Shown here: positions 1-60,607 of the stretch, piece after piece
Position numbering within the stretch: position 1 is the first letter of the stretch
How the letters are laid out: each line of letters opens with the position of its first letter
From: a virus
IMG/VR virus record: IMGVR_UViG_3300036893_000002
Span: 1-62,337 of that record
DNA length: 62,337 bases
Direction: 5' to 3' (one strand)
Program-made: the position numbers and the translations under genes
The notes under the pieces: generated by a model
What the model was told of the DNA's origin: nothing
The model's database searches: none
What the model saw: the letters and a program-made list of their open reading frames with translations, nothing else

Positions 1-3000
1 AGTCTTCAAACTCTTCCACTGATTACTATCTAAAGTGTTAATAGCAGCTATAGCTTCTCTTTCACCTTGCGAACCTTTTCTATAGAAGAAAAGATTAAGC
101 ATATCTTTGTCATCATCAGCTCCGAAGATAGCCCTAATTCTTTCATCCATACCTATCATATTAGGGCCTAACCCAGCATCAGGAGCGACTTTAATTCGCA
201 TATAAGGAGATGTCTGAATAGGATGACGGGCTACAGTAGCATATACATCCTGACCTGCTTCTAAAGCTGTTCGTATCCCCTCATCACGAATACGACTAAC
301 CATCTGCTTAGGAATCAAAGCTTCAAATGGATTGTCTGGCACAGCCCTGGTTTGTAGGAATCCAGAAAGAGCCATTGGATCCACACCACGAGCTCTATAG
401 AAACCATCCTTACCAAAGAGGACTGAGTAAGTATTCTCAAAGTGTTCAGAAATAGCTTTACCTAAAGAAGCTTGGTTTTGATTAGAAGCTCGTATAACAC
501 CGGCTAGAGACTTCTCATATTCAGTAGTACTATAAGCTAGCCCCTCACCAGGCTCCTCATAAAGATTAGAACCTCCACCATAGGCTGCTTTACCAAGGAC
601 AGGAATATGAGTGACTTCCATATCTACCCCACCAACTCTAGCCCAGACAGGCTCCTTTAGCTTAAGAGAGAAGTTCTCTTGTATATCAGTTCTTGTAGGA
701 TCAAAGATAGTTCCAGCTCTATCCTTCATAGTTCTCAAGGCTGTGTCTACTCTACCTCCCATAGCTGAACCTATATCAATCACATTACCCATAGGTTTAG
801 TAAAATCGCCAGAGACAAAGTGATGGGCAAAGGTAGCAGCCTCAGATGGATCCCCTTGGAATTGAAGGCGACTAAGTATATCTTTGATACCTCCAATATG
901 TCCAGACCTAAACATTTCAGAGAACAAATCAAAAGTAGTAGCTACACTATGAGAAACATTCCTACGAGTAGAATCCCAGAATGCAGCTGGAGCTGACATA
1001 GCATTACGCTGCATAAAGTCTAATAGGTTAGTTGATTTACTTTGGCGGAATGCCTCAAACAATTCGTCTTGAGTTCCAGGTGCTTCTCTTAAAGCCAAGT
1101 CACCTATACTATCTAAATACTTTTGAGTTCTTTCTGTAAGATATTGAATACGTTCAGATCGATATCCTCTATCTAACAAAGCTTGAGAATCTTCCACAAA
1201 GGATAAACGATCTCCCCAATGGGCCTTAATACCTTGGGCATTCAAATCGGACATATACTTATTAAGTTCATCTAAAGCATTAACACTTCCTAAAGATATA
1301 TTAACATTAGAAAGGTGTTCCGATACCTCAGCTGCCTGTTCTAATATCAATCTAAAAGGATCTGACACTTTAGCTTGAGTATAATGAAGTGGGGCTATAG
1401 CATCTACATAACTTGGTATAGCAGTCTTCGTGTTAGTTAGCTCCCCATATAAATTCATTGTATCTCTAATATTGGAGAACTCTGTATCGGTGGCAACTAT
1501 AGCTAATCCTTTTACACCAGCTACATCTACCTTAGCTCCAGTTTCTATCGGATACTTCTGTCTTAAGGTGAGCTCAACGTGATCACCAACTCGTTTTGCT
1601 TTCTCGATAAAGTTTTCTGGTGCACTGGCAGTAACAGGTTCCAAGCCAGAAAATCCAATTAGTTGATCAGGACCAAAGGCTTGAGTCTTAAATTTCTCGG
1701 TATCTATATGAAGTTCATTAACTCTAACAGTAGTTCTGGACTCCATTCCCATATTAGAATACTTCTCGTGAAGTAAGATACCACCTTCACCTAATCCACC
1801 AACTTTACGAAGATCTTGTAAGATACCTTTCTGAGCAATTGTTCCTTCAATCTTAGTCCAAGCAGCTTCAGCAGCTTCTCTTGATATTCCAGAGTCAGCC
1901 ATAATTCTATTTATAGCTGTTTCTCTATAGGCTGGGAGCTTAGCAAGATCATCAGGTAGATCTCCAAACAAAGACTTCATCTGAGGACTAATACCAGCTA
2001 CAGACATTCGTACTTCAGGCACACCACCTATAGCTTCAACAGCTGTAGTAGTAACTCTTGATCTCCAAGTAGAAGGTATAGAGTTGGCATCTAATTGAAG
2101 TTCCTTAGAGAACGATCTATAAAAAGAAGACTGCTTGGCTAAAGAAGGCATACCTCCTACTGTAAATAGTTCAGAAGAAGCATACTCATACACACCTTTT
2201 GCTGTGCCACCTTCAGAACCTATACGAGTCATACCATTAGTTAGCATCCTGTGAAGGATACCAAGTTTATCAGTAGCTGTTAGTTCACTAGAAGACTTAC
2301 CTCCAAATACAGGAAGACTTGAAGCAATTGCTGAGCGGGATCTTAGATGTAAAGCCTGAGGAGATAGGATAGATAACTGAGACTCTGTATGAGTTGCCAT
2401 CTTAAAAGGATTAAGAGGATCAACCCCACCGAAGTAGCCAGCTCGTTTTATATCTTCCTTAAGAAGTTTCCACTCATGATGTAAGTGCTGAGAGGCAAAT
2501 ATATCTAACTGAGAAACTTTCTCACCATCATAAATTCTACGTCCTACTCCTATACTTTCAAATTGTTTACCCAGTCTAACAGTTCCAGTATTGGGATCAA
2601 AGATAGGTATTGTTAATTCCTTCAACTCACCGTTAGAACGCTTTAATCTAATACCAAGTAATTTACCAGTTTCACCCTTCACAGTTTGTTCGGCCACTAC
2701 AACAGCTGACTCAACGGTCTTATTCCAAAGAGCTGATCTAATAGCATCAGCTACTTCAGGTCTCTGTGCTGATAGTAAATCAAACCCTTCGTGGAAAGAT
2801 AGTTCTTTAAGAGCTGGCTTTTCCATTACATCGGCAGCAATACTTACTTTACCAGCATCTGTAAGATTAGTAGCCCACCGCATTCTCCTATTAAACTCAT
2901 CTACGAATCTTGGATTGTTCTTGCCAGCCTCAATCATAGCAAACAACTGATCATCAGGAACAATAGGGAGGGTAGTTAGTTGAGTTTCACCAGCCAGCTG

Positions 3001-3519
3001 AGTTGGAGTAGCAGATCTTAAATGAGCTCCCTGAACAGCATAAGTTAATAAAGACTTCTTTGTAGGATCTTTGATAAGCTCTTCAAAGGTCTTAAAAGAT
3101 GCTTTGATGTCCTTACCAACCGGTTCAGTAGTAACAGAGAAGAAGTCTATAGCTGATTGGTCAACCCAGTTCTTAAGAGCTGGGTTCATATTACCTAAGT
3201 CTATACTTCCACCATCAAGAAAGTCTCTTACTTCTTTATATTGTAGCTGGGAATCCCTCTTAAAGAAGTAAGGCATTCTACGAACAAAAGCATCTCCAGC
3301 TCTATGTAACCTTGATGCTGAAGTAACTAACCCAGGAGCCGCAGCGCCCAAAGCGCCAATAATAGGAGTAGTAATAGCAGCTGTTCTAAAGTATCCCCTA
3401 TTCTCATCACTCATCTGGGCTGGAACTAAGGCCGCAGTTATACCTGTAGCTATAGCAATACCAGGATGCTTGGTAGCTAATTCAACGATAGGAGTAACGA
3501 ATTTTCCGAATAAAGGCAT
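1..3519 (-). CDS. Giant virion-block protein with two-barrel RNA polymerase signatures (3' end outside window)
   Basis: The reading frame is open from an ATG at 3519 to the window edge, giving at least 1173 residues; the C-terminus is missing. Two regions read like the catalytic barrels of multi-subunit RNA polymerases. Residues about 647-680 resemble the beta-subunit barrel, with lysines K663 and K670 in a G-x-K...G-x-K-G arrangement. Residues about 1085-1150 resemble beta': R1098-H-P1100 matches the NTP-contacting R-x-P (E. coli R425-A-P427). Then, 37 residues on, comes A-D1135-D-D1137-K-D1139, matching A-D-F-D-G-D (35 residues in E. coli). The N-terminus has two hydrophobic Gly/Ala segments (about 20-35 and 47-65), suited to membrane passage. 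It is the last visible gene of the tail operon, after the tail chaperone candidates and the 1415-residue protein. I infer a virion-packaged, single-chain RNA polymerase injected with the DNA, as known for crAss-like phages. The bridge helix and trigger loop would lie beyond the window. Confidence 0.75.
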   Translation of the reverse strand, partial: MPLFGKFVTPIVELATKHPGIAIATGITAALVPAQMSDENRGYFRTAAITTPIIGALGAAAPGLVTSASRLHRAGDAFVRRMPYFFKRDSQLQYKEVRDFLDGGSIDLGNMNPALKNWVDQSAIDFFSVTTEPVGKDIKASFKTFEELIKDPTKKSLLTYAVQGAHLRSATPTQLAGETQLTTLPIVPDDQLFAMIEAGKNNPRFVDEFNRRMRWATNLTDAGKVSIAADVMEKPALKELSFHEGFDLLSAQRPEVADAIRSALWNKTVESAVVVAEQTVKGETGKLLGIRLKRSNGELKELTIPIFDPNTGTVRLGKQFESIGVGRRIYDGEKVSQLDIFASQHLHHEWKLLKEDIKRAGYFGGVDPLNPFKMATHTESQLSILSPQALHLRSRSAIASSLPVFGGKSSSELTATDKLGILHRMLTNGMTRIGSEGGTAKGVYEYASSELFTVGGMPSLAKQSSFYRSFSKELQLDANSIPSTWRSRVTTTAVEAIGGVPEVRMSVAGISPQMKSLFGDLPDDLAKLPAYRETAINRIMADSGISREAAEAAWTKIEGTIAQKGILQDLRKVGGLGEGGILLHEKYSNMGMESRTTVRVNELHIDTEKFKTQAFGPDQLIGFSGLEPVTASAPENFIEKAKRVGDHVELTLRQKYPIETGAKVDVAGVKGLAIVATDTEFSNIRDTMNLYGELTNTKTAIPSYVDAIAPLHYTQAKVSDPFRLILEQAAEVSEHLSNVNISLGSVNALDELNKYMSDLNAQGIKAHWGDRLSFVEDSQALLDRGYRSERIQYLTERTQKYLDSIGDLALREAPGTQDELFEAFRQSKSTNLLDFMQRNAMSAPAAFWDSTRRNVSHSVATTFDLFSEMFRSGHIGGIKDILSRLQFQGDPSEAATFAHHFVSGDFTKPMGNVIDIGSAMGGRVDTALRTMKDRAGTIFDPTRTDIQENFSLKLKEPVWARVGGVDMEVTHIPVLGKAAYGGGSNLYEEPGEGLAYSTTEYEKSLAGVIRASNQNQASLGKAISEHFENTYSVLFGKDGFYRARGVDPMALSGFLQTRAVPDNPFEALIPKQMVSRIRDEGIRTALEAGQDVYATVARHPIQTSPYMRIKVAPDAGLGPNMIGMDERIRAIFGADDDKDMLNLFFYRKGSQGEREAIAAINTLDSNQWKSLKT

Positions 3520-3616: not shown

Positions 3617-6600
3617 TTAATTGACGCTGTCGTTCCTATACTCATCTGAGTTCCTACGAATGTCTCTCATTATCGCTTTGTCACCTTGTTCATCTATATT
3701 GATAGTGACATTGGAACCACCAGTTCTGGAAGCCTGGGTAGAGGAAGTTACTGCTGGATTCTTGTCTTGACCTTCTTGGATTATCCTTTCAACGGTCTGC
3801 CTAATGCGTTCAGCCGTCTGCGGGGAACCACCTGATGTAAGCTCTCGAACAGCCCCGTCCACATAGGGTTTCCTCCAGAGGAGCGCAGCTCTGTCATCGT
3901 AGATGTTGAAGTCGTGGTAGTCATAGCCTTCATTTTGAACGATTTTAAGTTTGACATCCTCATAATCCAAGCCTTCAAACCATAACGGAGAATCAGCGCC
4001 GGGGAGGTTAAATCCGAGTGTTGAAAACGTTTCAGCAATCTGTTTAGATCTGACGAAGTCACCATACGATAGAGAGGTTTTAGCATTCTTATATTCTTCT
4101 AGGTTTTCTTTAGTAAATAGTATACCACCTTCTTCAATAGGAGGTGTATCTTTTCCAGCCGCTTTGGCTAAGTCAGTGTCTTGTTTAACCCACTGGGCTG
4201 TAAGGGCACGGGACATCTCGGGAGTAACAGACTTAAGAATCTGTACACGCTTCTCGGGATCTGTCTCTTGAAGGAATGCTGAGAAGTAAAGTCTTTCTCT
4301 TCGAGGTAGGGTAGTAGAAACGAACTGAGGGTTTCCAAATAGGTTCCCCCCAATATTAGTTCTTTTACTCTGGCTAGTATACCTACCCTTAGCTGTTGGA
4401 TGAACATCAGCTTGCATATAACCACGCAAGTATGCCAACTCATCTGACAGCGAATCTAATTCTCTATTATGCTGTGCTTGGTCGGAGATTACAGCTTCGC
4501 CAGAGATTCTCTTCCATAGCCCTCGAGTCCACGGACCTATCATATCGTGAATAGGATGTTGCCATCTACGCATACGAGTACCATAGACTTCCTGTTCTTG
4601 ATATTGAGCGATGGCAGTTCTCTCTTGCCATAACTTTGTATGGTAAGGGGTAGGGAGAAGACGAAGGGGGCCGCCCTCTCCCTGGAAAGATAGAGTCTCA
4701 GCATACTTGCCCAAGGCTCTACCAAACTGGCCGTACATAGCTTGGGCTTCTGAGCCAGAAAGATCTTCTCTCATCCTGGCTAAGCCTCTATCAACCATCT
4801 CTTTATTTATATTTACATCGCCATCAAATATTACGGCTCTCGCTTCAGTACCGTGTGTACCAGCTCCCTGAGGAACCACCACAGACACTGAAGTCCCCAC
4901 TCTATCCTGCAAATAATGTAATAGATCTTGTTGTTTATGTTCGACTTCTTCCACCACTTGATTAGCCGTAAAATCATTGTGCTGGCCCAAGGCAATAGCA
5001 GATAGATCAGCAGCAGATAAACCGACGGAACTAAACTGAAATGTTTTTCCAGGGAACTCCTCCAATTCTACACCTTCTAAGGTAGCCCTTTTAATCGTTC
5101 CAGTAAGACGCTCTACGGGCTCGGTGAACCTCCGTTTATCGAACTGAACAGTAGACTCTTTCATCTGTCTAACTTGCTCTTCAGTTCGTGCAAACTCGAT
5201 AGCTAATCGGGAGTCCTTTTCAGACTCCTTTCTGATCTTAGCTTTATACATCATATACTCTTTTGAGTAAGGAGCTACGTCAGCTAAGATCTTATAACGG
5301 TAGATATCTGGATATTGATCTGGTCTAAGACCTTGGAGTTCAGGATGAACAGAAGCATAACCTGCTCCAGGAAGTCTGGCACCACCTTCAGGGACTTTGA
5401 CATAAGGATCGCCAGTCCTGAAGTTAATCATATAATCTTCACCAGGCAACCACTTAGGCATGGTGTTAGGTATTTCATTAGCCTGAGCTAATAATCTTTC
5501 TGGCTGGATAAATCTACGAAGTGGTTCTGTATATCCAAAGGGAGCTACTTCACCAGGTATAGGAGCCATACCTGCACCCAACTCACGCTGGTAATAAGAA
5601 GAAGACAGATTTGTCATCTGTCTACTACCCTGAAGGATTACATCTTTACCTGGAGTTTCTTGTGGTCCGACTTCTCCATATATAGTAGTGGCAATGAAAC
5701 CAGGCAGACCTGTAAACTCAGCAAAGGTTAACGCTTCCCTTTTAATAACATCTTTAAATGAGAACTCTTCTCTGGGAGTAGAAGGAGCAAGTCCATACAA
5801 ACCAGTATTAATATCTCGCCCTTCAATCTTGATAGGATTAATCTTAAGGTCACTTAATCTATCATACACATCTTCCATTGCTTTATCTGGATCAGCAAAG
5901 AATGGTCGGCTCTTGACATGAATTATATCCCAGCCTTTACTCTTTAAATAGGCTTCTCTTTCTTTGTCTCCACTTAGTTGATGCTTAGTATGATGATAAC
6001 TGAATCCCTCAGATTCAATGGCTAATCTCTTTCCATTGTCCCCACTTACTACGAAGTCTAATCTATATTTACCTTCTGGTTCCTGAGTAGTTGCAAGATA
6101 GCCGTGTTCAGCTAAATTCTGCAGAACCATAGCTTCTAACTTAGATTCTATAACAGGACCCTTAGGCTCTAAGCGTGGACTATAAAGAGTATAGTCACTA
6201 TCATCCCACTCACCCTCATGCATCCTGACAGGTGGCTTAACAATCTTACCTATAGTAGCAGCAAGAAATGTGCCAATTAAAGGGACATTGGAAAATGCTG
6301 GAGATGTAATAGGATAAGGTCTATCTTCATAGTTCTTCTTTTCCAACCAATAAGGATCTCTTAAATATTTGATTGGATGTAATAAGGGATGATGTGCCCA
6401 GTATTCTTCCTGGGATCCGTATGTAGCAACCATCTCTGGTTTAGTCTGCATAAGACTATACCAGTGTGGTCTATAATATTTTATTCTTCCACCCTGGAAT
6501 GGGGTAGAACCTATTTCCCACCAACGGCCAGCTCTGATAGGAACATCTTCTTCACCAGAATATATACGCTCTAATTCAGGAGCTGTCTTCCGACTACCTA

Positions 6601-7864
6601 ACATTCCTGGAAGAAATGGAAGGGCAAGAACCCCTCCGATTAATGCTCCTGCTATAGCTGACTTTCTAAAAGCTGCTCTTCGTACTGGAAAAGATTCAAA
6701 CTGTTTTATACCACTGGCAACCCCAGCCCAGTGAGCAAAACCACCAATTACAGCTCCAGCAATCGGTATAGCTAAAGGACCATATTGTGGTCCCGGAACT
6801 ACAGACTCATAGAAGTCTGTTACTTTCCTGGCTCCAGGAATAGTATCAGTTAACTGAGCTCTAAGTAAATTAAGCTTAAGAGGAAGACCAGCTACTGCTT
6901 CTTCTGGTTTGTTATTAAGCTTGTAGTTTATATAACGAAGAGCAGTAACACCTAAATAAGCAGGGATAACTCTTTTGGTAAATAGCTCGTTTAATAAACC
7001 ACCACTACCAATGCCTGGAATATGGAAGAGCTTATTATAAGATCCAGATCTTAAACCTAACCCTATATCTCCAAGAAGACGTAGTGGTCGTTCAGCAGCA
7101 TCGAAAGCTATTCGAGAAGCTGTATCAACAACAGATTGAGCACCACCTATAATTCCAGGTCTACGTCCTAATAATGGCTGGAAATACTTTGATTCCCCAC
7201 CAAAGGCTTGTCTAAACGAAGAACCTTTAGTAATAGGATTACGAAGATAGGTTCCCTCTCGACGCTGCTTCCAGATGGAAGGTATTAGATCTTTCCATCC
7301 TTCAGCAAAGCTACGAATTTTAACTTCTTCTTTAAGATCAGCCCCATAGCGAGCTGATGAAGCAGCTAATCTTCCTCGTTCTGCAAACCTAATACTATAA
7401 CCAGGTTTACCCTGTAATTCTAAATAAGGTGAAGTAGGTTTAGTTCGCTTAAAGGTTAAACCTTCAGCGAACTCTCTATCCCTAGGATCTATTCCTAATA
7501 GACGCTGAATATGAGCGCCCATAGGTGTAAGCGAATCACCAAATACAAGACTCTCAGGCTTAAGAAAAACATCATCTACAAGGTGAGAAGACTGCCACTG
7601 AGATAAAGAGAAAGTCTTGAAGATACGATTTGGTGATCGTTCTTCTACCTTCTGAAGTGTATGGTATAAATTTTCAGCAAAACCTGGCCATTTCTTAGTA
7701 GCGTATTTACTACCAGCAAACACACCAATACCTGCCACTAATGCAGCAGATAATCTAAATGGACTGTTTTGGGGAACGTTTAAAAGAGGGAGGGGTTTCT
7801 TAAATCCAGTAGACAAACCATTAGCATCATTAGAATCAACGAACGTTTTGGTGTTGTCTGCCAT
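3617..7864 (-). CDS. Giant virion protein with DUF559/Vsr-like nuclease domain; tape-measure position
   Basis: The product has 1415 residues and starts at ATG 7864, 6 nt after the preceding gene. It sits where a tape measure protein is expected, directly after the two chaperone-like genes, but it lacks the long coiled-coil repeats typical of tape measures. It has several Gly/Ala-rich hydrophobic segments (about 38-52, 363-385, 400-420, 525-540). Residues about 565-670 look like a DUF559/Vsr-type PD-(D/E)xK nuclease: E577 in an ESKLE start, Y-R-L-D603-F, then E617-S-E-G620, H624-H, D633...R636, and a closing K-G644-W segment. Residues about 930-1040 loosely resemble a staphylococcal nuclease fold (DGDVNIN...MVDRGLA, N1018-A1028), but the expected catalytic Arg and Glu are not evident, so that domain may be structural. 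An injected cargo protein that cuts host or competing DNA is one inference. The C-terminal 100 codons have higher G+C than the rest. Confidence 0.7.
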   Translation of the reverse strand: MADNTKTFVDSNDANGLSTGFKKPLPLLNVPQNSPFRLSAALVAGIGVFAGSKYATKKWPGFAENLYHTLQKVEERSPNRIFKTFSLSQWQSSHLVDDVFLKPESLVFGDSLTPMGAHIQRLLGIDPRDREFAEGLTFKRTKPTSPYLELQGKPGYSIRFAERGRLAASSARYGADLKEEVKIRSFAEGWKDLIPSIWKQRREGTYLRNPITKGSSFRQAFGGESKYFQPLLGRRPGIIGGAQSVVDTASRIAFDAAERPLRLLGDIGLGLRSGSYNKLFHIPGIGSGGLLNELFTKRVIPAYLGVTALRYINYKLNNKPEEAVAGLPLKLNLLRAQLTDTIPGARKVTDFYESVVPGPQYGPLAIPIAGAVIGGFAHWAGVASGIKQFESFPVRRAAFRKSAIAGALIGGVLALPFLPGMLGSRKTAPELERIYSGEEDVPIRAGRWWEIGSTPFQGGRIKYYRPHWYSLMQTKPEMVATYGSQEEYWAHHPLLHPIKYLRDPYWLEKKNYEDRPYPITSPAFSNVPLIGTFLAATIGKIVKPPVRMHEGEWDDSDYTLYSPRLEPKGPVIESKLEAMVLQNLAEHGYLATTQEPEGKYRLDFVVSGDNGKRLAIESEGFSYHHTKHQLSGDKEREAYLKSKGWDIIHVKSRPFFADPDKAMEDVYDRLSDLKINPIKIEGRDINTGLYGLAPSTPREEFSFKDVIKREALTFAEFTGLPGFIATTIYGEVGPQETPGKDVILQGSRQMTNLSSSYYQRELGAGMAPIPGEVAPFGYTEPLRRFIQPERLLAQANEIPNTMPKWLPGEDYMINFRTGDPYVKVPEGGARLPGAGYASVHPELQGLRPDQYPDIYRYKILADVAPYSKEYMMYKAKIRKESEKDSRLAIEFARTEEQVRQMKESTVQFDKRRFTEPVERLTGTIKRATLEGVELEEFPGKTFQFSSVGLSAADLSAIALGQHNDFTANQVVEEVEHKQQDLLHYLQDRVGTSVSVVVPQGAGTHGTEARAVIFDGDVNINKEMVDRGLARMREDLSGSEAQAMYGQFGRALGKYAETLSFQGEGGPLRLLPTPYHTKLWQERTAIAQYQEQEVYGTRMRRWQHPIHDMIGPWTRGLWKRISGEAVISDQAQHNRELDSLSDELAYLRGYMQADVHPTAKGRYTSQSKRTNIGGNLFGNPQFVSTTLPRRERLYFSAFLQETDPEKRVQILKSVTPEMSRALTAQWVKQDTDLAKAAGKDTPPIEEGGILFTKENLEEYKNAKTSLSYGDFVRSKQIAETFSTLGFNLPGADSPLWFEGLDYEDVKLKIVQNEGYDYHDFNIYDDRAALLWRKPYVDGAVRELTSGGSPQTAERIRQTVERIIQEGQDKNPAVTSSTQASRTGGSNVTINIDEQGDKAIMRDIRRNSDEYRNDSVN

Positions 7865-7870
7865 GCATGT

Positions 7871-8398
7871 TTATCTTCGTTTATAGGACTTACTTTCATT
7901 CTTTCTATCAACTGCTATCTGTTGAGTTTTTGTTAATTCCTTCTTAGGTTTCTTAGCAGCTTCAGGAGAAGTATTAGGGTTTGTAGGATTCAGAGGAACA
8001 CCAGAAACAAACTCGGCTTGAGCAACTCTGGTAAGAAGAGTCTCACTATCCCAAGTGTCTATTACTTCAAAAGGTATCTTAAATACAGAAGCAACAAATG
8101 CTTGAGCACAATATAGAAAGCTTTTTACTTTCTCTCTGCTTTCAGCTAATGGTCTAGATATAGTTGTGAACTCACCAGTGAAAGGAGTATTAGTCATTTC
8201 ATTCTGGTATATCCACATCATAATACCGGCTAATAATTCAGCTGGATCAGGACCCGATATCATAACCAAATTATAAACTTCTAATGCTTTCTCAGCAGGG
8301 CAGGCTTGAAGAGATTGAATTCTTTTATATTCTCCCCAAGTGAGAGACCTCCAGGAGACACTCGTTCCTGAAGGCCAAGTGGCAAATCTAACTACCAT
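7871..8398 (-). CDS. Putative tail assembly chaperone, second of pair
   Basis: The product has 175 residues, starts at ATG 8398 and lies 5 nt after the previous gene and 6 nt before the giant protein gene. It is mostly helical with a charged Lys-rich tail (KKPKKELTKTQQ region). Two small genes between the tube genes and a giant tape-measure-like gene are the usual position of tail assembly chaperones, which coat the tape measure during tail building. The sequence itself is not recognised. No slippery heptamer or overlap joins it to the upstream gene, so the programmed frameshift common in this pair in other phages is not seen here. The function is inferred from position only. Confidence 0.55.
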   Translation of the reverse strand: MVVRFATWPSGTSVSWRSLTWGEYKRIQSLQACPAEKALEVYNLVMISGPDPAELLAGIMMWIYQNEMTNTPFTGEFTTISRPLAESREKVKSFLYCAQAFVASVFKIPFEVIDTWDSETLLTRVAQAEFVSGVPLNPTNPNTSPEAAKKPKKELTKTQQIAVDRKNESKSYKRR

Positions 8399-8403
8399 AA
8401 GGA

Positions 8404-8865
8404 TTATAGATCGGCTGAAAGCATCTCAATCTTCTTTGGATCTATGAAGTCTGAGAGCTCTGTTACTATAGCAAATAAGGTAGATGGAGTTCCTGCTGCC
8501 CCAGTCCTTAGAATTGTATCTGTAAGCTTTCCACTCTGTCCCACATTGGTCCAAAGACATGCCCTAACTATTGAAGCAATCTGCATCTCTAATTCTGGGT
8601 CAGATGTTGGAGTTGCCATACTCTGGATACCTTTCTGAATCTGAGAGAGTTCTAATCCACTAAGACCTCTAAGAATATAAGCTCTCTTACCTCCTGCCAT
8701 AGCATCAGGAGCAAAAGCTCTAATACGATTAATAGGTGCCTGAGACTTCCAGGTTAGAATCATCTCTACTGAAGGAGCCCCATCTAATGTGGCAATAAAC
8801 TCAGCCATAGTTGGGATATGTGGTTCTGCTGGTGCCGCTGTTTCTGTTACTGCTTGTTCTGTCAT
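8404..8865 (-). CDS. Putative tail assembly chaperone, first of pair
   Basis: The product has 153 residues with a strong GGAGGT ribosome site just before ATG 8865. An Ala/Glu/Pro-rich N-terminus is followed by a helical body (LSGLELSQIQKGIQS, then a conserved-looking acidic helix). Its position, size and helical character fit the first tail assembly chaperone, comparable in role to lambda gpG or the SPO1/Twort-type chaperones. A TATAAT hexamer (8883-8888, minus strand) lies about 18 nt upstream of the start and may be a promoter -10, although no convincing -35 is visible. The assignment is positional. Confidence 0.55.
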   Translation of the reverse strand: MTEQAVTETAAPAEPHIPTMAEFIATLDGAPSVEMILTWKSQAPINRIRAFAPDAMAGGKRAYILRGLSGLELSQIQKGIQSMATPTSDPELEMQIASIVRACLWTNVGQSGKLTDTILRTGAAGTPSTLFAIVTELSDFIDPKKIEMLSADL

Positions 8866-15286: not shown

Positions 15287-15298
15287 CTGGTTAGTATA
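15287..15298 (-). promoter_or_regulatory. TATACTAACCAG motif, copy 1
   Basis: The exact 12-mer TATACTAACCAG is on the minus strand, 20 nt upstream of the ATG at 15267. It is one of five intergenic copies in this window, all in the direction of transcription. The first six bases resemble a -10 box, but the conserved AACCAG is not part of a bacterial consensus, and no common -35 is seen. It is a candidate phage promoter. Confidence 0.55.
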
Positions 15299-18395: not shown

Positions 18396-18407
18396 CTGGT
18401 TAGTATA
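18396..18407 (-). promoter_or_regulatory. TATACTAACCAG motif, copy 2
   Basis: This is an exact minus-strand copy, 15 nt before the ATG at 18380, in the 32-nt gap after the preceding gene. Upstream of it the sequence is AT-rich (TAATTAAG) with no clear -35. Confidence 0.55.
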
Positions 18408-21638: not shown

Positions 21639-23225
21639 TTATGTTAACTCCGTTACTACAACAGTTCCTGTACTGGCTGAAATAGCATTAATAGCACCCT
21701 TCCACACATCAGTAACAAAACTACCACCAGTTCCATCATTAGCTGAGCTACAAGCTTTAAGAACAACCGCATAAGCTGTTATAGTAGGAGTTTGACCCAA
21801 CCCAAGGAATACAACAGTAGTCCCTGTATTAATAACTATAGCTTCTCGCCGTGCTGTATTTGATGCTAAGATAGAAGCACTACTAGAAGTTACAGATGTA
21901 GCAGCTGGGGAACTACTCGTAACTGAAGTAGGGGTTGTAACTACTAAAGCGGGATCTGTTGCTAAAGCAGAAGTACTGGCTGACTTAATAGTAGCCATAT
22001 TGGATTGTATAGTTGCATCTCGTAAAGCTATACCATTACCAATATAAGTTGTTGCTTCATTGATTGATTCAACAACTCTTACAGTAGCCGTGCCAGTCCA
22101 AGCAGCAGTAGATCTAATTCTAACATTAGTAAATCCAGCTGCGCTTCCTTGCCCTGTAAAGTTATTTGTAAATGAAGATGTTGAGTAGCTAGTCCCTGTT
22201 TGGTGAATTCCTTGTGCAATCCAAGTACTAGAATCAGGAGACCATTCTACAACAAGTGTGCCCGTCCAAGTTCCTGTAACAAGAAAGCGTACAGTATTAT
22301 ATCCAGTAGATAATGCAAAAGCCGCAGTTGACCCAGCTGTTGGAGTTCCTGTAATAAAAACTTGACTATTAGCATAGGTGTTTGTTACAGAATTTGTATC
22401 TTGGGCAGTTATATTTACAGTAGATGGGGAGGTATCATTAATTGTACCTAATCCTATATTCCAAGTTCCTGACTGAGTAACGCCACCAATTGTATTAGAA
22501 CCAGATGGTAGAGCGGGCAAGGTAGCTAAAGATACAGGTTGTGTAACTTGATAAAACGTGCCAGAAACAGGCAATGGATTACTAGCGGAAACACCTACAA
22601 GATTACCACCACTATTAAAACCAGTATATCCAGCATTAGCTGGGACAGCAGAGCCTGTGAGTCCTGCTGCTGTATTACCTGAAATAGAACCAGCAGCAAT
22701 GTTAATCTTTAGATATCCATTAGAGTCTACTTGAATAGCAGCTTGCTGTTGATTAGTAAGAGTTATAGGGGTTGTATTATACTGACCACCTATAAGTAAA
22801 GATTTGGAAGCAACAGTATTTGGAATAACAGGGCCAGAAGCATCAGTTGAAACTGTACCATTAACTGTAGTAAGAGGTGCTGTATCAACTATAACGTGAC
22901 CTATAACATTAGTACCTGAAGGTAATGCTGGTAATGTAGCAATCGTTACAGCTACAGCAGAGTTAGTGATATTAACATTCTGAGTACTTGGGAAGTTAGA
23001 GACAGAAACACTTCCCTGTATGTAACCAGGATGACCAGAGGTTAAAAGTATATTAGTACCGTCTGTAATTTCTACCGAGGCTGGGAAATTACCAACACTT
23101 ACTGTTCCTGTAACAGTAACTGTCCCATCTATAAGATGATGTGGAGTATGAACTCCCGCAGTCTGAGTAGTTATTAGAGTTTGTACTGCGCTATTACTAT
23201 CTAATATAGTTATATTATTTGGCAT
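21639..23225 (-). CDS. Repetitive fibre protein (GTVSVGNFP type)
   Basis: The product has 528 residues. The N-terminal part has repeated short strands of the type V-S-V-x-N-F-P and A-T-L-P-A-L-P-S-G-(T/S)-N-x-I-G, seen in many phage fibre-like proteins. A middle beta domain (T-A-F-A-L-S-T-G-Y-N-T-V-R-F...V-E-W-S-P-D-S-S-T-W) follows, and the end is Ser/Thr-rich. There is no enzyme motif. It overlaps the preceding 1117-residue gene by 1 nt, indicating translational coupling. It is probably part of the same fibre assembly. Confidence 0.55.
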   Translation of the reverse strand: MPNNITILDSNSAVQTLITTQTAGVHTPHHLIDGTVTVTGTVSVGNFPASVEITDGTNILLTSGHPGYIQGSVSVSNFPSTQNVNITNSAVAVTIATLPALPSGTNVIGHVIVDTAPLTTVNGTVSTDASGPVIPNTVASKSLLIGGQYNTTPITLTNQQQAAIQVDSNGYLKINIAAGSISGNTAAGLTGSAVPANAGYTGFNSGGNLVGVSASNPLPVSGTFYQVTQPVSLATLPALPSGSNTIGGVTQSGTWNIGLGTINDTSPSTVNITAQDTNSVTNTYANSQVFITGTPTAGSTAAFALSTGYNTVRFLVTGTWTGTLVVEWSPDSSTWIAQGIHQTGTSYSTSSFTNNFTGQGSAAGFTNVRIRSTAAWTGTATVRVVESINEATTYIGNGIALRDATIQSNMATIKSASTSALATDPALVVTTPTSVTSSSPAATSVTSSSASILASNTARREAIVINTGTTVVFLGLGQTPTITAYAVVLKACSSANDGTGGSFVTDVWKGAINAISASTGTVVVTELT

Positions 23226-26200
23226 TAGAATCCAAGAGTAACAAGTTCACCACTCTGACAAGGTACATTGAAAGTAAGTCTACCAGTGGCACAAGCATTT
23301 GCTACAGGACCGTTGATGTATAAAGTATCAATATGTCGTCTAGAAACAGTAGCATTATAATAGAATATGTCTATATAATCCCAACCTCCACCACTTGGAG
23401 TGTATGTCAAATAGTATCTACCATCTTGTTTATCAATTATAGATATACTATCGGAACAGGGTGAATTATTCCTATCAAACAAAATAGTATTAGCACTATA
23501 CTCATAACTAAGAGGTGTACCTGGATTAACATTAAAGCTACCTATAGTTAGTCCTGTAACTGGGTTACCACTACTATCTAATATACGGAATGCTATATAC
23601 CTAAGCTTACCGATTGCACCTTCTTCTTTCATGTGGCTATATACAGTTGTAGTAGAACCAACTGAGCCACCCGTTCCTGTTGCAGTTACATTATCAACAG
23701 TACTATTTAAAACTAAACTACCAGTTGTTATACCAGCAGTTCCATAAGAGATAACTGGTTCGGTGCTAAATGTTAAACCAGTACTGCTGACGAATACATC
23801 AACACTAACGGAAGGTGTAACAGATCCTACACTGCTATTAAGTATATTACCTGTAACAGCTATAGTAGCATTGCCACTCGTGGAAACAGAATCTACGGAA
23901 CTGGTAATTACTAAGGAACCGTAAGGATCGTTATTTATAATACCATCAGCAGATATAACAACGGATGCGACCGATGATATTATTGTATTACTAGTAACTT
24001 GGGTAGATTCACCGACATTTACATTACCCATACTACTGGTAATAGCAGATCCAGTAACTGCTATAGAAGCATTACCAGATTCACTTACTGTTTCACAACT
24101 GGAAGTTATTACATTTCCAGTCCCAGCTATAGTACCACTACCAACTTCGGATGGCGAACCAGTAGAAGAGGTAATAGAAGAACCTATTACACCAATAGAG
24201 GCTGTACCGGTCTCAGAGATAGAACCTGTTGCGCTTGTTACATTATTACCAGACGCAGCTATATTAGCCGCACCAGATTCGGTAACAGTCCCAGTAGAAC
24301 TTGTAGTGGTACTACCAGTAACACTTGTAGTAGCAGAACCAGACTCACTAACTGTTCCTACACTACTGGTGGTCGTAGAACCAGTTACAGAGATAGTTGA
24401 AGTACTACTCTCAGTAATAGTTCCCGTTGAGCTGGTAAGGGTGTTTCCAGTAACAGCTATAGAACTACTATCTGATTCAGTAGTTCCCATAACTGAACTA
24501 GTAATAACATTACCAGTAGCAGCGATTGTAGCCGAACCTATTTCAGTACAAGACCCAACACTACTTGTGATAGTGTTAGAAGTTCCAGCTATAGTGGAAG
24601 TACCAGTTTCTGTAGTTGATCCTGTAGAACTGGTAATTGAAACACCAGATACAGATTCAGAGGCATTTCCTTTAGGAGCGACAGATCCAATAGAGCTTGT
24701 TACTATATTACCGGTAGCAGCAATAGTTGCTGTACCGCTTTCACTAACAGAACCAATAGAACTGGTAATCGTGTTACCAGTCACAGCAATAGAAGCAGTT
24801 CCAGTTTCAGTAGTAGTTCCAGTAGATGAGGTAATGGAATTACTAGTAGCAGCTATTGAGGCATTTCCTTTAGCTGTTACTGAACTGACTGAACTAGTTA
24901 AAGTGTTGCTTGTAGCAGCAATACTGGCAGTTCCAGTTTCAGAAATTGTTCCAGTAGAGCTGGTTATTGTATTGCCAGTCTGAGTAGTATTAGCTGCTCC
25001 AGACTCAGTAACATTACCTATACTGCTGGTTAGAGTATTACCTGTTGCAGCTATTGTTACAATGCTACTTGCAGTTACAGTGCCAATAGAACTGGTTATT
25101 ATATTACCAGTAACATTAGTAGTAGCTGTGCTAGTTTCAGATACATTCCCAGTCGAACTGGTTATCGTTGAACCAGTTGCTGCAATTAAACCTGTACCTG
25201 TTTCAGTAGTATTACCAATCGAGCTGGTAATAGAAGAACCAGTGACTGCCTTAGTAGCAGTACCTGTTTCGGTGACAGTTCCTGTACTGGAAGTTATAGT
25301 ATTCGCAGTTACATTTACTGGAGCACTACCTGATACTGTTACAGACCCAATAGTAGAAGTAACAGTATTACCTGTCGCTGCTATATTGGCTGTACCAGTT
25401 TCAGTTGTAGTACCGGTGCTACTTGTAATAGTATTGGCAGTAGCCCCAATACTATCGCTAGCACTATCAGATACAACTCCAGCAGTACTTGTTAATATAC
25501 TTCCAGTGACAGCAATAGTAGCTGTACCAGAATCAGAAACCGTGCCAGTAGAAGAAGTAACCGTTAATCCAGAAACTGCCTCATTAGCAGAACCTTTTGC
25601 AGTAACTGAACTTACAGAAGAGGTTATAGAATTACTTGTTACATTTACAGGAGCTGAGCCCGATTCAGTTATAGTTCCAGTACTGCTGGTAATAGTATTA
25701 CCAGTCTGGGCAATGTTTGCTGTACCAGATTCAGTTGAAATCCCAGTACTGGTAGTAACATTATTTCCAATCTGAGCAATATTTGCTGAGCCAGATTCTG
25801 AAACAGATCCTACTGAGAAAGTTACAGTTGAACCAGTAACCGCTATCGTAGATGAATTACTTACAACTACTGTATCAGTAGAGGAAGTAATAACATTACT
25901 AGTTGCAGCAATAGAAGAAGATACAGCTGCTATAACAGTCCCTACTGAAGAAGTTATAGTGTTGCCAGTAACAGCAACTGATGCTGAACCAACTTCAGTA
26001 GTATTACTAGTAGAAGATGTAACTGTATTACTAGTCTGAGTTATTGTAGCTGACCCAGATTCGGTAACAGTACTAGTACTGGAAGTTATTGTATTAGAAG
26101 TCTGGGAAGTAGAAGCAGAACCAACTTCAGATGGAGTTCCAGTACTACTTGTAATAGTATTGCTTGTAACGGCAATACTACTAGAACCTACTAATGTAAC

Positions 26201-26578
26201 TGATCCAACACTAGAAGTTACATTGTTACCAGTAACTGCTATATTAGCAGTTCCAGTTTCAGTAGTTGACCCAATAGAGGAAGTAATACTAGAACCTGTG
26301 GCAGCTGAAGTAGCTGATCCAGATTCGGTTGTATTACCAATAGAAGAGGTTGCTGTATTACCAGAAACTGATACAATTGCAGTTCCTGTTTCAGTTATAG
26401 ACGCAGCTGAAGAAATAATAGTTAGCTCAGAAGCAATTTGAGCAACTGCAACTGAAGCATCGCCAGTAATAGTTACTGAATATACTGAACTAGTTATAAC
26501 ACACGGAGTAGCATTTACAGTAACGCTTTGTGCATTGCCCCAAACAGCTTCTTGTCCAAGCAACGCTACTGTGGGCAT
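23225..26578 (-). CDS. Giant fibre/adhesin with about 38 tandem 22-residue repeats
   Basis: The product has 1117 residues. From about residue 25 to 870 it is built of 22-residue repeats of the form T-I-T-S-S-T-G-T-V-T-E-S-G-S-A-x-I-A-V-T-G, the spacing expected for a beta-solenoid or stacked beta-sandwich fibre shaft. It contains almost no charged residues other than Glu and no Cys in the repeats. The last about 130 residues form a separate domain (R-Y-I-A-F-R-I-L-D...I-L-F-D-R-N-N-S-P-C-S-D...D-G-R-Y-Y-L-T-Y-T-P-S). That domain is homologous to most of the 203-residue protein at 29782-30393. It may be the docking or tip domain. Recombination among repeats could change shaft length. Confidence 0.7.
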   Translation of the reverse strand: MPTVALLGQEAVWGNAQSVTVNATPCVITSSVYSVTITGDASVAVAQIASELTIISSAASITETGTAIVSVSGNTATSSIGNTTESGSATSAATGSSITSSIGSTTETGTANIAVTGNNVTSSVGSVTLVGSSSIAVTSNTITSSTGTPSEVGSASTSQTSNTITSSTSTVTESGSATITQTSNTVTSSTSNTTEVGSASVAVTGNTITSSVGTVIAAVSSSIAATSNVITSSTDTVVVSNSSTIAVTGSTVTFSVGSVSESGSANIAQIGNNVTTSTGISTESGTANIAQTGNTITSSTGTITESGSAPVNVTSNSITSSVSSVTAKGSANEAVSGLTVTSSTGTVSDSGTATIAVTGSILTSTAGVVSDSASDSIGATANTITSSTGTTTETGTANIAATGNTVTSTIGSVTVSGSAPVNVTANTITSSTGTVTETGTATKAVTGSSITSSIGNTTETGTGLIAATGSTITSSTGNVSETSTATTNVTGNIITSSIGTVTASSIVTIAATGNTLTSSIGNVTESGAANTTQTGNTITSSTGTISETGTASIAATSNTLTSSVSSVTAKGNASIAATSNSITSSTGTTTETGTASIAVTGNTITSSIGSVSESGTATIAATGNIVTSSIGSVAPKGNASESVSGVSITSSTGSTTETGTSTIAGTSNTITSSVGSCTEIGSATIAATGNVITSSVMGTTESDSSSIAVTGNTLTSSTGTITESSTSTISVTGSTTTSSVGTVSESGSATTSVTGSTTTSSTGTVTESGAANIAASGNNVTSATGSISETGTASIGVIGSSITSSTGSPSEVGSGTIAGTGNVITSSCETVSESGNASIAVTGSAITSSMGNVNVGESTQVTSNTIISSVASVVISADGIINNDPYGSLVITSSVDSVSTSGNATIAVTGNILNSSVGSVTPSVSVDVFVSSTGLTFSTEPVISYGTAGITTGSLVLNSTVDNVTATGTGGSVGSTTTVYSHMKEEGAIGKLRYIAFRILDSSGNPVTGLTIGSFNVNPGTPLSYEYSANTILFDRNNSPCSDSISIIDKQDGRYYLTYTPSGGGWDYIDIFYYNATVSRRHIDTLYINGPVANACATGRLTFNVPCQSGELVTLGF
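23990..26500 (-). repeat. 66-bp coding repeats in the fibre shaft gene
   Basis: Roughly 38 tandem units of about 66 bp (22 codons) are diverged at the DNA level but keep a strict reading period. On the opposite strand the repeat leaves long stop-free stretches, which explains the large antisense ORFs there. Confidence 0.75.
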
Positions 26579-29781: not shown

Positions 29782-30393
29782 TTAAGTCACCGATACAAAG
29801 GGATATAGTACAACCGTAATATTTCCATTTACTAATACGATATGAACTGTATTGGGAGTAACTACATTTATAGAATTAACCCAATCACCATTAGTCATAA
29901 CAGGTGTATTACCTAAAGCATTATAAGACTTAGTCTTACCTAAAGTCCAATCACTAGATAGAAATACATATAAAGAGTACAGATTTGGTTTAGGTAATGT
30001 AACTCTATATTGGCCTGGAGATCCATAATCTTGATTTAATACAGCCACATTGCTGGCCGCTGTAGCTGAAGGTGATTCAATATCATCTTCATCAATACGC
30101 CTATAACTCTCAGCAGCTACCCAAATATCTACATAGTCATGCCCCATAGATGAAGGGGTATACATAATTGCATAACGCCCATCTGAGAAATTATGGAAGC
30201 TTATGACATCTGAACAGGGTGCAGAATTTCGCTCAAATATAATAGTATTCTGTGTAGGAGAATACTCGTCGGTTTCTTCAGTACTAGCTGGACTTGGGTT
30301 GATAACAAAGCTACCAAGTGTAATGTTAGTAACAGGAGTGCTACCATTCAATACACGAAAATCAATATACCTGGTTTGGCCTACATAACCCAT
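29782..30393 (-). CDS. Fibre-docking-like protein sharing a domain with the giant repeat fibre
   Basis: The product has 203 residues. Residues about 8-120 match the C-terminal domain of the 1117-residue fibre: R-Y-I-D-F-R-V-L-N-G, then F-V-I-N-P, I-I-F-E-R-N-S-A-P-C-S-D, D-G-R-Y-A-I-M-Y-T-P-S, G-x-D-Y-V-D-I. The remainder is a second strand-rich region. Because the domain stands nearly alone here, it may be an adaptor or tip module. A TATACTAACCAG motif lies 10 nt before the ATG. Confidence 0.55.
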   Translation of the reverse strand: MGYVGQTRYIDFRVLNGSTPVTNITLGSFVINPSPASTEETDEYSPTQNTIIFERNSAPCSDVISFHNFSDGRYAIMYTPSSMGHDYVDIWVAAESYRRIDEDDIESPSATAASNVAVLNQDYGSPGQYRVTLPKPNLYSLYVFLSSDWTLGKTKSYNALGNTPVMTNGDWVNSINVVTPNTVHIVLVNGNITVVLYPFVSVT

Positions 30394-30403
30394 TTTATCT
30401 CTC

Positions 30404-30415
30404 CTGGTTAGTATA
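30404..30415 (-). promoter_or_regulatory. TATACTAACCAG motif, copy 3
   Basis: This is an exact minus-strand copy between the 229-residue gene and the ATG at 30393. It is only 10 nt from the start, and the ribosome site GGAGAG falls just after it. If it is a promoter -10, the transcript would have almost no leader. Confidence 0.5.
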
Positions 30416-49694: not shown

Positions 49695-50086
49695 TAGAAT
49701 AAGCTCTTAACTAAGTTCCTCATCATTCCAGCTTTAGCCGTACCAGCCCTTCTCATAGCATTTGCCATAGGACGTGGATTACGCATCATATTACCAGCAA
49801 GAGTTTTCATCCCTGGCCCATATTTACTGGCTGCAGATGCCCCATATATACCACCGATTGCGGCAGCATTCCATGCTAGCCCAGTTCCCCAAGCTCCTAC
49901 AAGAGAACGCCCTACACCCTTTCCTTCACGCCTATCTTGTCTATAAGTATGAATTTGATGAGCAGTACCTCCAATTGCAAAAGCTGCCGCACCGGCCATG
50001 AGTGCTATATTAGGATCAATTTTACCAGGTAGTGTCTTCATATAATTCATAGCAACACTAGATCTCATTTTTGTAAAGAATGCCAT
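49694..50086 (-). CDS. Glycine-zipper membrane protein, small
   Basis: The product has 130 residues from ATG 50086, preferred over a GTG at 50092 because AGAGGTG then has normal spacing. Hydrophobic Gly/Ala segments occur at about 25-38 and 62-80, with a basic Arg/Met-rich C-terminus (M-R-N-P-R-P-M-A-N-A-M-R-R-A). A TATACTAACCAG motif lies 25 nt upstream. The style resembles the next gene, and both may act in a membrane complex. Confidence 0.5.
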   Translation of the reverse strand: MAFFTKMRSSVAMNYMKTLPGKIDPNIALMAGAAAFAIGGTAHQIHTYRQDRREGKGVGRSLVGAWGTGLAWNAAAIGGIYGASAASKYGPGMKTLAGNMMRNPRPMANAMRRAGTAKAGMMRNLVKSLF

Positions 50087-50111
50087 AGTCACACCTCTAG
50101 TTAATTCAAAT

Positions 50112-57652: not shown

Positions 57653-60607
57653 ATGAATCAGAAATATCATTTGATTATGAATGGCAGTAAGAGGGATCCT
57701 ATTATTCTTAGGACCCCGCATGTGGAGGGTCAGAAGTATAACTCAGCCACGATGTTCCACGAGATATATGACAGGCGTCAGTTCTTGGAACAGCTTGGTA
57801 TTCCATTTGCGATGGCTACCGTGACTGAGAGGTCACAAGCCGAAGACTTGTTGTTGAATGGTCGAATGATCAATGGTGAGCATTGGTTTGCTCCTATTGG
57901 TTATACCAGGGATGATAGCGCAGTGTTCATTCTCACTCTGGGGGATTATACTCCAGAGCATATGTTGGAGCTGTTGGGTATGAGAATGAATGAAGATCCA
58001 AAGCTTCTGCGTACTAACCTTGCAAAGTGGGATCACACTTTCAAGGTCAGTAAGTATATGAAGCGGCTTTGGTCACATCATCGTAGTTATATCCAGGGTA
58101 CCGTGATTGAAGACCTGGGTGATGTGATCAAGGTTAAACTGGACAATGGTGAGGACATTACCGTTCGCTATGCCGATTATGGCAAGCTGGTGGACGGTAT
58201 GAACCTGGTGGCCAGTCGTTTGATGAGTGTATTACCAGTCAGTGATGAAGTCAAGCTCAGTGCTGATACTGGCACTGGTTTGCGTCTCACTGTGTTGAGT
58301 CCGAAAGGATTCAGCAAGGGTCATGCTATTGTGCTGGGTGATTTGGAGTATGACCTGGTGTTATTCAATAGCAAGAAGTTGCTGTTTGGTGACCGGTTTA
58401 CATTGGGTATGGATGCCCTGCATTCTGGTGGGCTATATACCGATGCTCAATCGATCATCAATTTCCAGATGTATAACACACCTATGTTGGGTGAGTGGGC
58501 TGAGAAGTTTATGAGAGAAGTGCTGGATGCTATCCAGGACGAAGAGAAGATTCGTCATATGTTGGGTGCATACGGCATTGACTTTCATAAGGACTCAGCG
58601 ACTGGTCAGTATTATGATAAGGAGAAGGGATGGGCACTGGAGCGTATGCTACAGGGGGGTGTTGGCATTAAGCAACACCCAGCTGGCGTACGTAAGGTAA
58701 GTAACTTGTTTATGAAAACAGTAATGTCCTGTGAGTATGGCCCGAGTGATAGCAAGGGTCGTACTCGCTCATTGCGTATACCTGTGCCTCCTGAGTGTGG
58801 TTGTGCCAGGTATATTATGGTTGATCCAACTATCTTTGATACCACTGGTACACCATCATTAGCTGGAGTTTTGCGTGGCTATGATTGTGCTGTCCGTGGT
58901 CATCAGGGTGAGGTGGTTATCCATCGGCAGCCTAATGCACATCGTGGTGAGGCTGTGAAATTGGATGCTGTTGCTAACCCATGGCTTATGAGTATGGATA
59001 CCGGTACATTCATATTTGTAAGTTGTGATTCAATTGAAGAGGTCTGTGAAGTACAGGGTGGTGGCGATCAGGATGATCGGGAGGTGATTTACACCGACAA
59101 GCGTATGGTGGATCACCTCAAGTCATTGCCTACGTATTTTGTGGAGCCTAAGCAGGTAAAGAAAGAAGTAAAGCAGGTGCCAAATAGGTTTATGGATTTG
59201 GCATCTATACCTGTGTATGACAAGCGTCAACTGATTACGATCATAGCTAATCAGGAACAACAACGTGTGAACATTGGTCAGGCTGTCAATCCTATTATGT
59301 TTGACACTCTGATCACTGATGAGCGTCGTCAGATTATGGATTATCTGTATACACTCATTGGTAATCCAACTATGGATCAGGCCAAGCTACAGAAGGCCTG
59401 GGATGTATTGGAGGAGTTCAAGGGTAATAGGTTAATTACTATTGCCTCTAACCTGGAACAGATCATTGATGCTGTGAAGCGTGATGGTGCTGATGTCAGG
59501 GCATACGCTAAACAGATCCTTGATTTCTGGGCCTGGTTGCCAGTATGTCCTGAAGTGTTCTTGAGAGGAGGGTTTGAGAATCGTGGTAGGCTACCAATAT
59601 CTCGTCGAGATGAGAATCATCCTATTGTAGTCAAGACCAATCTTGACTATGTATTTGATGATATCAAGAAGATGAGACAGGAGTTGGAGGATATGGTAAC
59701 TATTCTCACTTGGCAGATGTGTGAACATCCGTCAATGGAGATCTTGACAGATCCAACTCGAACGGCAGCAAGGCCAACTGCTCTTGCCATTAAGATGTTT
59801 TATGGTGAGCAGTTAAGGGAGATTATGGCTAAGGTGCCTGAGGATGACATTGATGGACGTATTCAAGGCTTTATCAAAGTCGATGAGAATACGTACAATC
59901 AGTTCAAGGATCATCCGCAGATCATTGATGCTATGGTTGAGCTGTATGCGATTGTGTATGATCGTGTACAGCCGACGGCTCCTATCGATGAGCAGACTGG
60001 TCGTCCCAAGCCTTATCCTGATGGTATCTTGTGGGGACCGAGGATGAGTGGGTTGACTATTGAAATGCTTGATAGGGTGGGGCTTGCAGGAAGGTATGTG
60101 GAAGCTACCATCTACAAACAACAACGGAAGTATTTCCGTCATGCTGTCCTTGATGTCAATATCAAGGATGGTGTGATTACACAGGAGGGTACCAATGTGG
60201 AGATTGGTATGATTGATCCAATTGCGGATGGTAAAGCCAAGCTGGATCATGGCTTGGTTAAGGTGCCATCTCATTTGGTAATACCGAAGCTACGCATTCC
60301 ACCTCCCTCTGTGAGTGTGTATACCGTTGTAAATGGTATGTTTACACGCAATGCCACACCAGAGGAGGTGCAGGCCTGGACGTTGCATGGTGTCAAGCAA
60401 GAGCATGTGCATCTGAAACCATATAAGTATATGGGTGCTGATATGGTTGAAGAGCATGCTGTTGCTGTTGTATTAGTGGATAGTGGTGTTGTGATTGGTA
60501 ATTTGACGAGAGAAGATGCTCCTCAGATTACCGAGCTCACAGAAGGGTGGTTGACTCGTGGTAATACACCAAGGACAATGCGTGTCATTGTCAAGGGAGG
60601 GAGATAA
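57653..60607 (+). CDS. QDE-1/RDR-like two-barrel RNA polymerase homologue with altered metal loop
   Basis: The product has 984 residues with GAGGTGAG before the ATG. The first barrel signature is S-P-K218-G-F-S-K222-G-H-A-I-V, then L-F-N-S-K241-K242-L-L-F. The cellular RdRP (RDR/QDE-1) pattern is G-x-x-K-G-V-V...R-x-S-x-x-K-F. The second barrel begins G-E-V-V-I-H-R425-Q-P-N-A-H-R-G-E-A-V-K-L-D-A-V, matching N-P-C-L-H-P-G-D-V-R-x-L-x-A-V of the family. Then, 47 residues on, comes G-G-G-D472-Q-D474-D475-R476, where RDRs have G-x-D-L-D-G-D. The third metal aspartate is thus Arg. Helices 490-720 and a C-terminal beta-rich part are unassigned. I infer a non-virion phage RNA polymerase or a regulator derived from one. 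It is followed at 1 nt by the 123-residue gene. Confidence 0.7.
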   Translation: MNQKYHLIMNGSKRDPIILRTPHVEGQKYNSATMFHEIYDRRQFLEQLGIPFAMATVTERSQAEDLLLNGRMINGEHWFAPIGYTRDDSAVFILTLGDYTPEHMLELLGMRMNEDPKLLRTNLAKWDHTFKVSKYMKRLWSHHRSYIQGTVIEDLGDVIKVKLDNGEDITVRYADYGKLVDGMNLVASRLMSVLPVSDEVKLSADTGTGLRLTVLSPKGFSKGHAIVLGDLEYDLVLFNSKKLLFGDRFTLGMDALHSGGLYTDAQSIINFQMYNTPMLGEWAEKFMREVLDAIQDEEKIRHMLGAYGIDFHKDSATGQYYDKEKGWALERMLQGGVGIKQHPAGVRKVSNLFMKTVMSCEYGPSDSKGRTRSLRIPVPPECGCARYIMVDPTIFDTTGTPSLAGVLRGYDCAVRGHQGEVVIHRQPNAHRGEAVKLDAVANPWLMSMDTGTFIFVSCDSIEEVCEVQGGGDQDDREVIYTDKRMVDHLKSLPTYFVEPKQVKKEVKQVPNRFMDLASIPVYDKRQLITIIANQEQQRVNIGQAVNPIMFDTLITDERRQIMDYLYTLIGNPTMDQAKLQKAWDVLEEFKGNRLITIASNLEQIIDAVKRDGADVRAYAKQILDFWAWLPVCPEVFLRGGFENRGRLPISRRDENHPIVVKTNLDYVFDDIKKMRQELEDMVTILTWQMCEHPSMEILTDPTRTAARPTALAIKMFYGEQLREIMAKVPEDDIDGRIQGFIKVDENTYNQFKDHPQIIDAMVELYAIVYDRVQPTAPIDEQTGRPKPYPDGILWGPRMSGLTIEMLDRVGLAGRYVEATIYKQQRKYFRHAVLDVNIKDGVITQEGTNVEIGMIDPIADGKAKLDHGLVKVPSHLVIPKLRIPPPSVSVYTVVNGMFTRNATPEEVQAWTLHGVKQEHVHLKPYKYMGADMVEEHAVAVVLVDSGVVIGNLTREDAPQITELTEGWLTRGNTPRTMRVIVKGGR

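Follow-up and report, generated by a model that had tools for sequence, protein, structure and literature searches.

At the left end of the viral DNA analysed here, amid tail genes, lies a gene (gene 1) whose product is very probably a relative of cellular RNA polymerase in one chain. By analogy with characterised phages, this location suggests that the particle probably contains a transcription enzyme of the phage's own, which is injected together with the DNA. The reading that we consider likely as a whole is that the tail carries the gene 1 product, a DNA-dependent RNA polymerase of the two-barrel (cellular) type with a single chain; its packaging, ejection and activity are what we infer. 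The stretch examined (the window) is a complete IMG/VR record, a linear fragment of 62,337 bases. If the reading is true, tail-borne cellular-type RNA polymerases are not confined to the crAss-like phages and a single group of thermophilic phages, but occur in a wide range of large phages with contractile tails that are related to 0305phi8-36; for these, the polymerase described in the literature searched is solely a gene outside the tail block (PMC2147016). The proposed link between tape measure and virion polymerase would then become testable in the cultured phages KLEB27-3 and ME3, and the gene 1 family would supply natural variation within an active-site loop usually treated as fixed.

Active-site residues and their conservation

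The gene 1 frame starts at an ATG at position 3519 and is still open at base 1, giving 1173 aa; the C-terminus lies beyond the contig end, the window copy being cut at its left edge. K663 and K670 had been named as part of a beta-like signature, and R1098-H-P together with D1135, D1137 and D1139 as part of a beta'-like one. All of these residues were found at those numbers, the beta-like stretch reading G661-A-K663-V-D-V-A-G-V-K670-G671, and the distance from the arginine to the first aspartate is 37, as claimed. When the gene 1 protein was shuffled, so that composition alone was kept, the pattern R.P.{30,42}[AG]D.D.D appeared in 20 of 20,000 shuffles. Hence the beta'-like pattern, judged from the gene 1 sequence alone, is uncommon and suggestive, and is not conclusive by itself. 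Several hydrophobic N-terminal segments had also been proposed; one stretch (46-67) was confirmed, and no other passed a simple hydropathy cut.

In direct searches the gene 1 protein matched nothing among phage records, in PHROGs or in Pfam, gave nothing useful in NCBIfam and one meaningless match (E 2) among PDB sequences, and a viral scan with its own peptides found no relative. A terminase search led to a 215-kb relative (G012) that encodes a full-length, 1589-aa homolog (53% identity), in which GADDDKD is intact. Gene 2, the neighbour of gene 1, was used as a marker for locating further relatives; its homologs include those in G012 and in Moorella phage MTATph1, with which it shares blocks at 25%. 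Patterns taken from gene 2 retrieved viral loci together with their downstream gene, 59 at first and 21 afterwards, and 16 relatives of gene 1, most of them reached through gene 2, were found by profile search and aligned (A8). Other large phages have relatives with the same active-site residues at this place, and none of these is labelled a polymerase in those annotated records that were checked. A description of the family was not found in the literature searched, and some members may have been listed earlier with PMC10770324. Scans of genome contigs found no host for the phage.

Every relative that extends far enough retains K663, R1098, P1100, D1135, D1137 and D1139 (23-53% identity; L109 ends before the R1098..D1139 region and is left out of the statement for that region), and K670 is kept within one residue in the relatives inspected. 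When the window protein was aligned with three relatives, down to 26% identity (A6), K663, G668, V669, K670, R1098, P1100, A1134, D1135, D1137 and D1139 were invariant. An 11-member alignment has 46 of 1173 positions kept in at least 10 members, and these include the six positions K663, R1098, P1100, D1135, D1137 and D1139; the chance that all six fall among the 46 would be about 3e-9 if positions were independent, which strictly they are not. The motif-bearing end is the best-conserved part of gene 1 against its nearest relative, with 85% compared to 53% overall. Among six near-identical relatives dN/dS was 0.04-0.06, which indicates strong purifying selection on gene 1 in those six.

The metal loop is spelled DDDKD in the window and L036, DVDKD in L115, DHDKD in L113, DDDLD in L038 and DFDAD in L040. 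Ordinary DxDGD forms also occur, namely DTDGD (L098), DADGD (L100, L101) and DMDGD (L108). DDDKD had been singled out as an unusual variant, but it is less odd than claimed, because variation is limited to the x letters and none of the three aspartates changes. To judge from these alignments, selection maintains the aspartate triad, and the loop can be spelled in several ways, of which DDDKD is one. An RxP..DxDxD arrangement was also found in more distant loci, in the gene after gene 2, with the forms GDYDGD (L045), ADSDGD (L041), ADVDGD (L070) and GDVDMD (L094).

Predicted fold and profile matches

AlphaFold2 was run on the window gene 1 protein with a 17-sequence alignment and gave a model with pLDDT 71 and pTM 0.54, in which residues 1-136 are poorly predicted. 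In a Foldseek search against the PDB, the 50 matches listed were solely RNA polymerase large subunits (E 3e-5 to 1e-3). They comprised Rpb2/beta-type chains (vaccinia, Pol I, Pol III) as well as Rpb1/beta'-type chains (bacterial beta', the AR9 and phiKZ non-virion enzymes, Pol II). A model of L036 residues 400-1589, with the complete C-terminal half, likewise had solely RNA polymerase large subunits among its 50 listed PDB matches. Structure models and profile searches had been proposed as the way in which the original prediction could fail; both were run, and among the matches listed the models found RNA polymerase large subunits solely. Whole-chain TM-scores were low (about 0.1-0.3), which we count against a polymerase, although low values are expected where only the core is shared. 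The Rpb2/beta and Rpb1/beta' matches together point to two double-psi beta-barrels in the gene 1 protein.

Among predicted viral structures, tail or unnamed phage proteins came first, the best match being a 'minor tail protein' (E 5e-17) and the second best an ME3 protein with the length of ME3_36; known viral RNA polymerases ranked lower. The gene 1 family profile, which does not depend on any structure model, was compared with PDB sequences and ranked Pol I rpa1 and bacterial beta' first (E 0.08-0.17), with R-x-P placed on R-x-P and DxDxD on DFDGD. Taken by themselves, these sequence matches fall short of significance, which also counts against the reading, and a profile of the beta-type region alone matched no PDB sequence. 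Taken together, the residues and the predicted fold indicate that the gene 1 protein belongs to the two-barrel superfamily.

Tail-gene neighbourhood, second polymerase and alternative readings

The features are collected in Table 1. Window and G012 have the same gene order: sheath, tube genes, two small chaperone-like ORFs, gene 2 and gene 1. The order of beta-type before beta'-type parts in one chain, previously proposed, holds for the window and for full-length relatives, and the place in the tail block, also proposed, holds for the window, G012 and ME3. Gene 1 had also been put at the end of the tail operon, which proved wrong, as a 1951-aa baseplate-type gene comes next in G012, the nearest relative.

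Table 1. Positions of the features discussed (window coordinates unless a locus is named)
Feature	Position	Strand	Basis
Gene 1, probable virion RNA polymerase with two barrels in a single chain	1..3519	-	Conserved residues; AlphaFold and Foldseek; full-length relative of 1589 aa
Beta-like signature G661-A-K663..G668-V-K670-G671	1507..1539	-	K663 invariant, K670 kept within one residue (members inspected)
Beta'-like signature R1098-H-P1100..A1134-D1135-D-D1137-K-D1139	103..228	-	R, P and three D invariant; in register with R-x-P..DFDGD of bacterial beta' and Pol I rpa1
Gene 2, large tail protein preceding gene 1, containing an inserted MTES_1575-type nuclease domain	3617..7864	-	Pfam PF18741 E=1e-18; homologs in G012 and Moorella phage
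Gene 2 loci with exchangeable nuclease parts	3617-7864; L017 3005-7930; L019 30512-34441	- (window)	
Two small ORFs (175 and 153 aa), tail-chaperone position	7871..8865	-	Position and size; ME3 has a putative tail chaperonin there
Probable second (non-virion) RNA polymerase, QDE-1/YonO-like	57653..60607	+	PF05183 E=0.044 at 415-534; motifs kept in homolog
Promoter-like 12-mer TATACTAACCAG, six copies, same strand	15287-15298, 18396-18407, 30404-30415, 40427-40438, 50112-50123, 56084-56095	-	

The nuclease parts of gene 2 appear exchangeable, with an MTES_1575 endonuclease in mid-protein in the window and, by eye, a DEDD-exonuclease-like N-terminus in G012; a DEDD-like domain was also seen by eye in the gene after the gene 2 counterpart of MTATph1. 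A nuclease reading of gene 1 was dropped because such domains sit in gene 2 or its counterparts. Next to the structural block, on its terminase side, two small Gly/Ala-rich proteins with a membrane-seeking look (48939-50092, minus strand) are possible ejection helpers. The minus-strand frame 23225-26578 encodes a 1117-aa protein of short Thr/Ser-rich repeats (TSSTGxxxESGxAxIAxTGN-like), the C-terminal tail of which is common to the protein at 29782-30393. A dual-specificity-phosphatase-like protein (HCHAGISRS) and a metallophosphatase-like protein were noted by eye among the structural genes, also on the minus strand (52616-53110 and 48211-48939).

The probable second polymerase lies divergent from the structural block and has homologs (L015, L016) at 44% identity. 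HRQPN, GGGDQDD, IGxxVN and IDAVKxxGAD are kept in a 44% identical homolog. The PF05183 match has E=0.044 and was not detected in L016, the protein matches no PDB sequence, and its motif is GDQDD where the core type has DxDGD. The regions upstream of the two second-polymerase genes showed no promoter in common. A 12-mer, TATACTAA[C/T]CAG, is present in six copies in the window and in ten in G012, where 0.1 would be expected for an exact 11-mer; the G012 form, TATACTAATCAG, differs from the window form by one fixed base. The copies have the sense of the surrounding genes and often lie 22-43 nt before a gene start, with no conserved -35 box near them. Because the 12-mer precedes structural genes in the window, it would fit a promoter of the second polymerase or of a phage sigma factor better than one of the virion enzyme.

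A sister cluster of 46 sequences (L042-L093) occupies the same place, in the gene after gene 2, and lacks the canonical RxP..DxDxD, which we count against the polymerase reading. Its aligned representatives have a near-invariant GG[FY]D[LM]DDK, and in most of them RQP[TS]G stands some 20 residues further on, so that RxP comes after, not before, the GGFDLDDK-like motif. Judged by these motifs, the cluster may consist of inactive or rearranged polymerases, or of something else. It also bears on the alternative that the gene 1 protein is a tape measure or another ejected tail protein, descended from a polymerase and no longer catalytic, whose fold was kept for structure or passage. This is improbable in our view. 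Gene 1 holds the place that was called tape measure in 0305phi8-36 (PMC2147016), the letters of the metal loop drift, and the sister group has GGFDLDDK; however, at 23-28% identity, where most other positions have changed, relatives retain the arginine, all three aspartates and the beta-type lysine, and members with a plain DxDGD exist.

An active polymerase could also be made late and act inside the cell on late genes, without being packaged, since a position in the structural operon is no proof of packaging. We hold this to be quite improbable: the known single-chain polymerases of tail or virion blocks, gp96 and gp66, are virion proteins (PMC10770324; gp66 by mass spectrometry), and the phage already encodes a separate probable non-virion polymerase. 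Very improbable is the idea that the two-barrel enzyme uses a different template or makes a different product, as an RNA-templated polymerase or an enzyme of primase-like type would. The same fold occurs in QDE-1-type enzymes and in archaeal PolD (PMC10770324), and the sequence leaves template and product unfixed, but the structure matches listed are DNA-dependent RNA polymerases, as are the characterised virion relatives. Chance matches in an unrelated tail protein, a thought prompted by the 0.1% of shuffles with the beta'-like pattern and by direct family searches that find nothing, are hardly credible, because exactly these residues are conserved across relatives and two structure searches give RNA polymerases.

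On the preferred reading, that of a DNA-dependent RNA polymerase carried in the tail, the gene 1 protein would become part of the tail structure or be loaded along with the tape measure. When the phage infects, the protein would leave with the DNA and transcribe the first DNA to enter, so that host RNA polymerase would not be needed. The second polymerase would be among the first products and would then serve later promoters, possibly TATACTAAYCAG. Packaging, ejection with the DNA, host-independent first transcription and the handover to the second polymerase are proposed here by analogy with P23-45 and the crAss-like phages. Catalysis would be of the two-metal type, with D1135, D1137 and D1139 holding Mg2+ and K663, K670 and R1098 contacting RNA and nucleotide, and the residues between the aspartates would be free to drift. 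More speculatively, and with rather less than even confidence, a whole old lineage of large contractile-tailed phages might have an RNA polymerase as the protein in tape-measure position, with the metal loop recoded in some branches (DDDKD, GDHDQD, perhaps GGFDLDDK, with motif order changed), so that the enzymes there would have altered chemistry or be on the way to serving solely as a tail ruler.

Comparison with known systems

Two cultured phages have motif-bearing counterparts of gene 1 in the tail block. In Acinetobacter phage ME3 the same order was found, with the putative chaperonin ME3_33, ME3_34, ME3_35, ME3_36 and the baseplate hub ME3_37; ME3_36, annotated as hypothetical, is in exactly the place of gene 1 and has SREPAQ..GGDHDQD. 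In Bacillus phage KLEB27-3, whose host is Bacillus australimaris, gp034 lies in the tail block just before a putative baseplate gene and has NRYPT..KADYDGD; its single Pfam match, at the motif, is PF00623 RNA_pol_Rpb1_2 (Rpb1 domain 2; E 0.015), and its annotation labels it a structural protein, a label given without stated basis. Both are too diverged from gene 1 for sequence search, with the motifs GDHDQD and ADYDGD, and gp034 has 2,434 aa.

In Bacillus phage 0305phi8-36, whose virion proteins have been surveyed by mass spectrometry, the gene before the hub is orf146, and the agreement of its length with that of the tail led to its assignment as tape measure (PMC2147016). Gene 1 comes one gene after the chaperone-like ORFs, as does orf146 (PMC2147016), and this assignment makes a structural role of the gene 1 protein likely as well. 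The RdRP-family, PF05183-like polymerase of that phage, orf99, is encoded on the other arm (PMC2147016). Compared by its published description, orf99 may well be the counterpart of the second polymerase of the window, not of the tail-block gene.

The virion RNA polymerase of Thermus phage P23-45, gp96, is fused to the tape measure (PMC10770324) and works on an RNA-DNA scaffold. As is predicted for gene 1, gp96 has two barrels in a single chain; it is likewise encoded in the tail block, and P23-45 also has a separate non-virion polymerase (PMC10770324). The spacing of RNP..DFDGD in gp96 is 38, compared to 37 in gene 1. In gp96, however, the polymerase forms the N-terminal portion of a tape measure of 5,002 aa, which belongs to a long tail of the non-contractile kind, whereas gene 1 and its relatives are separate genes for about 1,500-1,760 aa in sheath-bearing phages, and the metal loop is DFDGD in gp96 and DDDKD in gene 1. 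With hhalign in local mode the two gave P 0.028 at the motif, so kinship is not significant. The virion RNA polymerase gp66 of crAss-like phage phi14:2, annotated as a virion protein by mass spectrometry, is also a single chain encoded in the virion block, with a RIP..DFDID spacing of 39; in contrast to gene 1 it has 2,180 aa and belongs to a short-tailed phage, and hhalign detected no sequence kinship between the two. By analogy, the gene 1 protein would work like gp96 and gp66.

The multisubunit virion RNA polymerases of phiKZ and AR9 likewise have a two-barrel active site and are virion enzymes, as gene 1 would be. Their enzyme is split over several polypeptides, whereas gene 1 has both parts in one chain and thus is not of the phiKZ multisubunit kind. 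Collectively, we place the gene 1 family as a new lineage beside the known virion polymerases gp96 and gp66, the new features being the separate gene and the drifted metal-loop sequence.
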